64,000 nt of DNA from an uncultured Alphaproteobacteria bacterium (GTDB lineage: Bacteria > Pseudomonadota > Alphaproteobacteria > RF32 > CAG-239). The notes beneath the pieces are model-generated. The model searched no databases. It had not been told where the DNA came from and saw only the letters and a program-made list of their open reading frames with translations. The DNA lies in assembly GCA_944391515.1 (NCBI GenBank), contig CALXTW010000001.1, positions 65,378 to 129,377 of the forward strand, in the 5' to 3' direction. A program made the position numbers and the translations under genes. Numbering within the stretch: position 1 is the first letter of the stretch; each line of letters opens with the position of its first letter. Positions 18,432-18,960 of the stretch are shown here, one piece after another.

Positions 18432-18686
18432 TTATTTTTCTTTAATATTCAAGCTGACCTCAAGGTCATAATAATCAATCAAAGTTTCAATATCCAAGTT
18501 ATAAAGGCTTGATTGCCCTTTTTCGATTTTCTCTAAACTTTTAAGATTGATTTTGGTTTCTTTACAGACTTGTTCTGGGGTAATTTGGCGCTTTGAACGA
18601 ATAATCAAAAGCAAACTTCCCAGCACCCGCCCGATGGTTGTGCGCAAATCTTTGGCATTGATTTGCACATTTATTTTTTCAAACAT
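18432..18686 (-). CDS. small helix-turn-helix protein, XRE-like
   Basis: An 84-residue protein whose centre reads as an XRE-type helix-turn-helix: ITPEQVCKETKINLKSLEKI (about residues 35-54) followed by EKGQSSLYNLDIETLIDYY. It has no extra ligand or dimerisation domain. The ATG has a strong GAGGAG site 7 nt upstream. That site (AGCTCCTC on the plus strand at 18691-18698) is perfectly complementary to GAGGAGCT at 18750-18757, inside the structured RNA region just upstream, so translation could be controlled by pairing. Target genes are unknown. It may be a regulator of that locus. Confidence 0.65.
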   Translation of the reverse strand: MFEKINVQINAKDLRTTIGRVLGSLLLIIRSKRQITPEQVCKETKINLKSLEKIEKGQSSLYNLDIETLIDYYDLEVSLNIKEK

Positions 18687-18721
18687 TTTTAGCTCCTCAC
18701 TTTTATATGTTTTTATAAAAA

Positions 18722-18883
18722 AGCAAAACCACCTTTTAGGTAAAAGGTGGAGGAGCTGAAAAACTGTAATCAGAGACAGTCACGCTTATTCGACCAAAGG
18801 CTTATATCACGCACTCCTCCAAAGTGGAGGATTCTTTCTGACTAAGATGTTTTTCAGACACCACAACCGGTCTCCCTATTGCA
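18722..18883 (-). ncRNA. candidate structured small RNA of about 160 nt
   Basis: Between rplI and the HTH gene, the minus strand shows a complete transcription unit without an open frame: a promoter (18890-18917), structured RNA, and an intrinsic terminator (18729-18750). A 9-bp stem CTGAAAAAC/GTTTTTCAG joins 18848-18856 to 18757-18765. Inside it are a second helix TCAGA/TCTGA and a hairpin TCCTCCA/TGGAGGA with a 3-nt loop (about 18815-18831). The size and closed-rod shape would fit a 6S-like RNA, but I cannot recognise a family. It lacks the SRP RNA GGAAGGAAGCA signature and tmRNA features. The alternative is a long leader or attenuator of the HTH gene. Confidence 0.5.
18725..18750 (-). terminator. 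terminator of the candidate small RNA
   Basis: CCACCTTTTA (18729-18738) and TAAAAGGTGG (18741-18750) form a tight hairpin. Reading the minus strand, it is followed by a T-rich tract (TTTTGCTTTTTT). The stem sits 43 nt before the HTH start codon, so it could also act as an attenuator. Confidence 0.65.
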
Positions 18884-18889
18884 AGAAAC

Positions 18890-18917
18890 ATATTACTAAA
18901 ACTATTTTATTTTGCAA
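18890..18917 (-). promoter_or_regulatory. promoter of the candidate small RNA
   Basis: Minus-strand TTGCAA (18912-18917) and TAATAT (18890-18895) are separated by 16 nt. The -35 box overlaps the outer edge of the rplI terminator. Expected start of transcription is near 18883. Confidence 0.5.
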
Positions 18918-18960
18918 TTAAAAAACACCTCTGAAATTATCAGAGGTGTTTTTTAATTGC
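18914..18960 (-). terminator. terminator after rplI
   Basis: A perfect 21-bp stem (18914-18934 with 18940-18960) with a 5-nt loop. The core is CACCTCTGA/TCAGAGGTG, flanked by A6 and T6. It is symmetric and could work in both directions. It ends the rpsF-rpsR-rplI operon. Confidence 0.92.

Follow-up and report, generated by a model that had tools for sequence, protein, structure and literature searches.

A structured RNA between rplI and a small HTH gene

Within the window (the whole stretch of DNA analysed here, 64,000 nucleotides from an uncultured Alphaproteobacteria bacterium), rplI is followed by a structured RNA element and then by a gene (18432-18686) encoding an 84-residue protein of the XRE/Cro helix-turn-helix (HTH) type, with a match to HTH_19 that falls short of the Pfam cut-off (24.4 bits, E 2.7e-5); all three lie on the minus strand. 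An initial annotation of this interval had proposed a new small RNA gene with a promoter, a terminator and several helices, and the parts that it named were found where it had placed them. On the minus strand, a -35 element TTGCAA (18912-18917) and a -10 element TAATAT (18890-18895), separated by 16 nucleotides, precede the RNA; an intrinsic terminator hairpin CCACCTTTTACCTAAAAGGTGG (18729-18750) and a T-tract (18717-18728) follow it; and no minus-strand open reading frame of 60 or more codons is present within the element. The whole structured leader, including its terminator, occupies positions 18719-18885, and was recovered both by plain BLAST and by a covariance model, R1, which was built from relatives together with the window copy itself (138.2 bits, E 4.8e-28). 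The window copy folds better than its shuffles (z = -2.98, 1/200). A generic promoter scan did not list the leader promoter of this copy; among homologues, TTGCAA is the majority sequence at the same position, a TTGnnn-N15-18-TAnnnT promoter was found in 106 of 142 distinct upstream regions (against a mean of 17 after shuffling), and in 99 of those 106 the -10 element ends 3-4 nucleotides 5' of the RNA.

Read on the minus strand, the RNA opens with a hairpin, P1 (TTGCAATAGGGAGACCGGTTGTGG, 18861-18884), in which 97.7% of the alignment cells are paired and two-sided changes were observed at seven of eight pairs. It is followed by hairpin A (18846-18862), which takes the form GGTGT(CTGAAAA)ACATC in the window and GGAG/CTCC in other copies, and which displays two-sided changes above all shuffles. 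The loop of hairpin A is the 5' strand of a long-range pairing, P2, formed by CTGAAAAAC (18849-18857) and GTTTTTCAG (18756-18764), with 98.5% of cells paired, two-sided changes in six of eight pairs, and covariation of its 3' strand; the tail of the same hairpin, TAGTCAGA (18837-18844), is the 5' strand of P3, which shows two-sided changes in all six of six pairs and a covarying 3' strand at 18767-18774 (TCTGATTA). Also present are a local hairpin, P4 (TCCTCCACTTTGGAGGA, 18815-18831), in which TCCTCC pairs with GGAGGA (90.7% of cells paired, two-sided changes in three of five pairs), and a P5/P6 stem (18781-18813; P5 98.3% paired) with a conserved internal loop, GAUAUAAG opposite CGAAUAA, whose residues are nearly invariant. 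Hairpin B (GACTG/CAGTT, 18762-18781) holds the 3' strand of P3 in its loop, and covaries in divergent copies. The remaining pairing, P7, joins GGAGGAG (18814-18820), which is common with the 3' strand of P4, to CTCCTCC (18749-18755), which overlaps the base of the terminator stem. The nine-base-pair stem of the initial annotation (that is, P2) is real, as are the TCCTCC/GGAGGA hairpin and the inner helices, but it is not a plain closing stem: it is one half of a switch, and its 5' strand doubles as the loop of a conserved hairpin.

Distribution and downstream genes

The same annotation had made its proposal depend upon conservation in close relatives, and such conservation was found. A plain DNA search recognised the element in 18 of 56 relatives, often at several places in the same genome, and covariance modelling (the first model being built from 22 copies) located it in 119 of the 152 genomes of the family and in 15 of its 16 genera. 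Six copies are present in the genome from which the window is derived, and several genomes carry at least 23 copies according to the covariance model. A pattern scan of GTDB returned at least 88 places, all of them in uncultured Alphaproteobacteria or proteobacteria and mostly from rumen and gut, and a broader model, applied to a sample of 385 genomes from across the class, identified relatives in 35.

The genes behind these RNAs are of several kinds. Where a gene could be read (77 copies), it was a small open reading frame of at most 130 residues in 44 cases and a larger one in 33. The small frames mostly encode HTH proteins of the XRE type, whose sequences are very diverged; the larger genes mostly encode surface proteins, chiefly BspA-like leucine-rich-repeat (LRR) proteins (14 of the 26 scanned), prepilins bearing an N-methylation motif (four), Cys-rich secreted proteins and one acetyltransferase of the LPS type. 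The same mix of XRE regulators, prepilins, lipoproteins and outer-membrane proteins recurs outside the family. The Shine-Dalgarno sequence of the downstream gene lies approximately 20-40 nucleotides past the terminator in nearly every intact homologous copy, and no promoter is evident between the terminator and that gene.

Two further ideas concerning these genes were considered and rejected. The notion of immunity groups, in which different P2 pairings would be selected among the copies of one genome, found no support (11.7% against 11.3% expected), and a reading of the HTH proteins as components of defence systems turned up nothing in PADLOC beyond generic HTH or control-protein matches. A common C-terminal motif, KRIYTxxEA...NxxxIRYR/K, which is possibly a surface-anchoring signal, occurs in many LRR surface proteins (L085 4382-5596, L099 6725-7981 and others).

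This genomic arrangement bears directly upon the question of whether the element is a free-standing small RNA that acts in trans and is only incidentally close to genes, as the initial annotation had supposed and as has also been published for sRNA-Xcc1. The element does possess its own promoter and terminator, its CUCC strand, complementary to Shine-Dalgarno sequences, could act on mRNAs, and sRNA-Xcc1 is itself a mapped RNA of 88 nucleotides (PMC2996969). However, its copies occur in the same position and orientation directly before start codons across many families, they have the geometry of an antiterminator, and the following gene has no other evident promoter, all of which render this explanation rather improbable. 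What stands of the earlier proposal is a structured RNA bounded by a promoter and a terminator; its status as a separate gene does not, and its supposed resemblance to 6S RNA, made on grounds of size, was contradicted by a 6S covariance model that gave no match in the window. Because nearly all intact copies directly precede genes, the element is read here as a leader, and as an attenuator that would also yield a short terminated RNA.

Several copies display local rearrangements. Two or three leaders stand in tandem, spaced within a few hundred bases, at L061 2324-2702, L149 1501-2136 and L201 42-708. At L089 1512-1677 (minus strand) a repeated sequence interrupts an HTH gene after approximately eight codons while the leader before it is intact, such that the RNA has outlived its gene. 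In one genome, two leaders (L004 163-324 and L019 1576-1732) are cut after hairpin B and continue into a common unrelated sequence at the ends of their contigs, as if an element had been inserted there.

Covariation and two competing folds

The pairings described above fall into two sets that reuse the same strands. For the first (the set that includes P2, P3 and P4), two-sided changes that preserve pairing were observed in 34 of 40 pairs among 92 distinct copies, and compensatory cells numbered 987 as compared to 271.9 in shuffles, a signal that was destroyed when the partners were slid relative to one another; the alignments in question (A2 and A5) were fitted to the first-fold model, and these counts thus lean towards that fold. 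An alignment made with MAFFT only gave the same picture, with two-sided changes in 18 of 32 predicted pairs. The second fold, consisting of hairpins A and B and of P7, lies above all shuffles in the main measures. P7 joins the 3' strand of P4 to a CUCCNCC that lies just ahead of the terminator, and the dual use of the P4 strand is visible at column 138 of the alignment, which co-changes with its P4 partner in 58 cells and with its P7 partner in 49. Among divergent copies, the CTG/CAG of hairpin B is replaced by CAC/GTG, CTA/TAG or CCG/CGG (as in GACAC/GTGTT and CCGT/ACGG), and P7 takes the form of GAGGGG/CCCCTC or ACTGGAAG/CTTCCAGT. Covariation demonstrates that both of these mutually exclusive folds are conserved, although P2 and hairpin A could instead constitute a pseudoknot within a single fold.

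These patterns also speak to the proposal that the element, with its fold as a by-product, is a repeat of a selfish or mobile kind or else a 5' cassette of surface-protein genes that recombination has homogenised. Its multiple and tandem copies, their frequent location at contig ends, and the occurrence of near-identical downstream genes within one genome would all be expected of such an element. Set against them are massive compensatory change and divergence throughout which both pairing and gene context are preserved, and the observation that in one group of genomes the RNA stems differ, with compensation, before paralogous HTH genes of nearly identical DNA; we regard the proposal as having very little chance of being correct.

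At L093 564-728 and L034 3241-3412, a U-G contact between P4 (GGAGU) and the 3' strand (GCUCC) is replaced by C-A, formed by GGAGC and ACUCC; one wobble shape may have been exchanged for a similar one.

Relationship to sRNA-Xcc1 and to phage leaders

At gathering scores, no Rfam family matched the window or 20 relatives, in agreement with the initial annotation, which had been unable to assign the RNA to a family. Below that threshold a relative nonetheless exists: the RF02221 (sRNA-Xcc1) model aligns over its full length (positions 1-87) with 18741-18820 of the minus strand, scoring 23.8 bits (E 0.1) where the gathering score is 53 bits. The structural hallmarks of that RNA, a closed domain composed of a stem with an internal loop and a second hairpin, are found in the alignment: the P7-closed domain, the P5/P6 internal loop (GAAUA.../GAAUAA) and hairpin B all correspond to parts of the model. 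Judged from sequence and predicted structure, the 3' domain of the leader is homologous to sRNA-Xcc1, and since the match is full-length but weak, the window copy is termed a homologous relative rather than a member. Unlike sRNA-Xcc1, the window leader has an additional 5' half (P1 and hairpin A) that pairs with the domain, together with a T-tract terminator, and leaders of its type precede XRE or surface-protein genes.

The correspondence extends well beyond a single copy. Searched over 33 genomes, RF02221 identified the same places and strands as our own models in most families (for example, G348:C1:311353, G440:C80:977, G000:C12:33124 and G012:C10:10948), scoring 56.2 bits on the copy in G348 and 24-52 bits on other alphaproteobacterial copies; it gave no matches in 14 control genomes. 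One 1.6-Mb genome (G440, family f160) carries 36 RF02221 matches, several of them with an IHVGQRLKQQR-type XRE gene or a 46-residue open reading frame behind them.

A pattern derived from the window type found nothing in viral contigs, and one derived from GC-rich relatives found phage contigs whose leaders fit the same model. RF02221 scored 77.6 and 65.0 bits on viral contigs, above its cut-off of 53, and 68-86 bits on phages Aaphi23, Rac-SA53 and Smp131, a Bordetella phage and an Acinetobacter phage. The gene following the phage RNA is an annotated antirepressor in five of six phage records and a KilA-N protein in the sixth; in Smp131 the antirepressor gene is annotated as starting ahead of the RNA match, so that annotation and RNA overlap. 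Both of the segments with which the 5' half of these phage leaders pairs find a further match, in a second copy at the antirepressor's ribosome-binding site (TCGAAAATAACAAACAGGAG in Aaphi23). The match of loop B to that site extends to at least 6 base pairs in ten of ten phage and prophage copies, whose segments were chosen by eye, and the P2 3' sequences match as well. Within the window's family no such copy was present at ribosome-binding sites, whether of the leader's own gene or of other genes, so a step acting in trans or at the ribosome-binding site is unsupported there. A clear T-tract terminator was not found in the phage leaders examined; in the window's family, an intrinsic terminator has taken the place of the second ribosome-binding-site copy. 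The window leader is best read as a host-adopted, terminator-coupled and multicopy variant of the phage antirepressor-leader RNAs, whose core, we infer, moved from phage to host and not in the reverse direction.

A proposed mechanism of attenuation

A conserved antiterminator that overlaps a terminator ahead of a gene is the mark of an attenuator leader, and such an arrangement is present here. Counted from the start of the conserved CUCC, the terminator stem begins approximately four bases further on, and in 79 of 81 copies the P7 strand reaches 1-5 bases into that stem (often only 1-3 nucleotides); because it does so, P7 competes with the terminator at its base, beside the T-tract. In addition, an AGCUCC strand (AGCTCCTC, 18750-18757) is complementary to the Shine-Dalgarno region GGAGCU of the downstream gene (GAGGAGCT, 18691-18698), with which it can form 8 base pairs in the window and 3-5 base pairs in about half of the copies. 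On the strength of this overlap, of the Shine-Dalgarno pairing, and of a conserved promoter 3-4 bases before P1, the leader is probably a cis-acting attenuator of the phage-immunity type that turns the small XRE-type DNA-binding protein gene behind it on or off, having a core in common with phage antirepressor leaders and a logic similar to that of C4, P4 CI and IsrK.

In the proposed mechanism, transcription would begin at P1. In an OFF state, the long pairing of P2 and P3 would form, P4 would close upon itself and strand AGCUCCUCC would be left free, with the result that the terminator would remain intact and any read-through RNA could have its Shine-Dalgarno sequence paired. In an ON state, hairpins A and B would form and the 3' strand of P4 would pair with CUCCUCC as P7, leaving neither the terminator base nor the anti-Shine-Dalgarno strand available. 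The P7 fold is the presumed ON state. The terminated short RNA, or the P7-closed domain, might furthermore act in trans, either on transcripts of its own leader or on those of sister copies, by analogy with IsrK and C4.

An alternative source of control would be a metabolite or second messenger, with the invariant GAKAUAAG/CGAAUAA loop of P5/P6 binding a small ligand that chooses between the folds. The loop is unpaired and nearly invariant, and may serve in binding a ligand or a protein; the leader has the anatomy of a switch; and a regulon of many genes (adhesins, prepilins and regulators) recalls that of the c-di-GMP riboswitches, which likewise place numerous surface and pilin genes under leader control. 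Those riboswitches nevertheless have another fold and gave no Rfam match, and relatives of the leader persist in genomes that lack GGDEF domains: the complete 0.9-Mb genomes G219, G338 and G508 carry three to six copies in the absence of GGDEF or RelA/SpoT domains, G057 and G063 have a copy without GGDEF, and GGDEF is present in several genomes that have no copy. These copy-bearing small genomes make c-di-GMP and ppGpp unlikely as universal ligands, the co-occurrence of leaders with GGDEF did not support c-di-GMP, and the phage relatives display ribosome-binding-site matches of an antisense type. Control by a small ligand consequently appears unlikely as compared to attenuation through competing RNA strands.

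Downstream of the terminator in many copies, among them L038, L046 and L051, ACAAAA follows the T-tract TTTTGTTTTA; in a read-through transcript the two could base-pair immediately ahead of the Shine-Dalgarno sequence.

Comparison with other RNA systems and significance

Among known RNAs, the IsrK leader of anrP in Gifsy-1 (RF01394) is similar in being a terminator-bearing leader before an antirepressor gene, with short and read-through isoforms and two folds (PMC4825925), but it employs a translation step at orf45 that is not seen in the window leader; its covariance model gave no match in the window, and a 15.7-bit hint only on phage contig L298. The C4 antisense RNA of P1 and P7 (RF01695) likewise controls the following gene through two short pairing segments, and its chromosomal derivatives are multicopy in Acinetobacter (PMC5320573); its model matched neither the window (E up to 10) nor contigs L298 and L300 (E up to 1), and segments matching the ribosome-binding site of the following gene, which characterise C4, are a property of the phage relatives and not of the window's family. 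As summarised in PMC4825925, the P4 CI RNA is a domain flanked by complementary segments (seqA and seqC) that decide transcription termination; compared by that description, the window's family differs in having upstream complementary segments only, with no downstream one. HTH_XRE leaders have been reported among human-microbiome RNAs (PMC8040213), where no Alphaproteobacteria are named, and no match to the window leader was made.

sRNA-Xcc1 has been described as a trans-acting small RNA, has been located upstream of symE in integron cassettes of Xanthomonas (PMC12444791), and appears close to C4 and isrK in a published table for Xylella fastidiosa De Donno (PMC12189769). With the present observations, this 88-nucleotide 'orphan', known mainly as a trans-acting RNA, becomes the core of a widespread superfamily of leader RNAs whose members precede antirepressor genes in phages and, in gut Alphaproteobacteria, genes for regulators and surface proteins, and it gains a concrete and testable function. 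The family is large, mostly unrecognised, and related to the RNAs with which phages control their antirepressor genes. Its existence suggests that the surface proteins of abundant uncultured rumen and gut bacteria are subject to a layer of control not recognised before, and that phage lysis/lysogeny control was likely domesticated. A more far-reaching version, offered tentatively and with somewhat more doubt than confidence, is that a phage-immunity type of RNA control was taken over by host-associated lineages of Alphaproteobacteria, in which dozens of attenuators act genome-wide on regulators, adhesins and pilins, and in which the short RNAs cross-talk or share a trans-acting RNA.

Upstream of the leader, rplI has a strong hairpin of its own, a 20-base-pair palindrome at 18914-18960 of the window, near copies of which occur elsewhere in the genome and in relatives (for example, G000:C12:9963-10002), and which may be a repeated terminator or a palindromic element.
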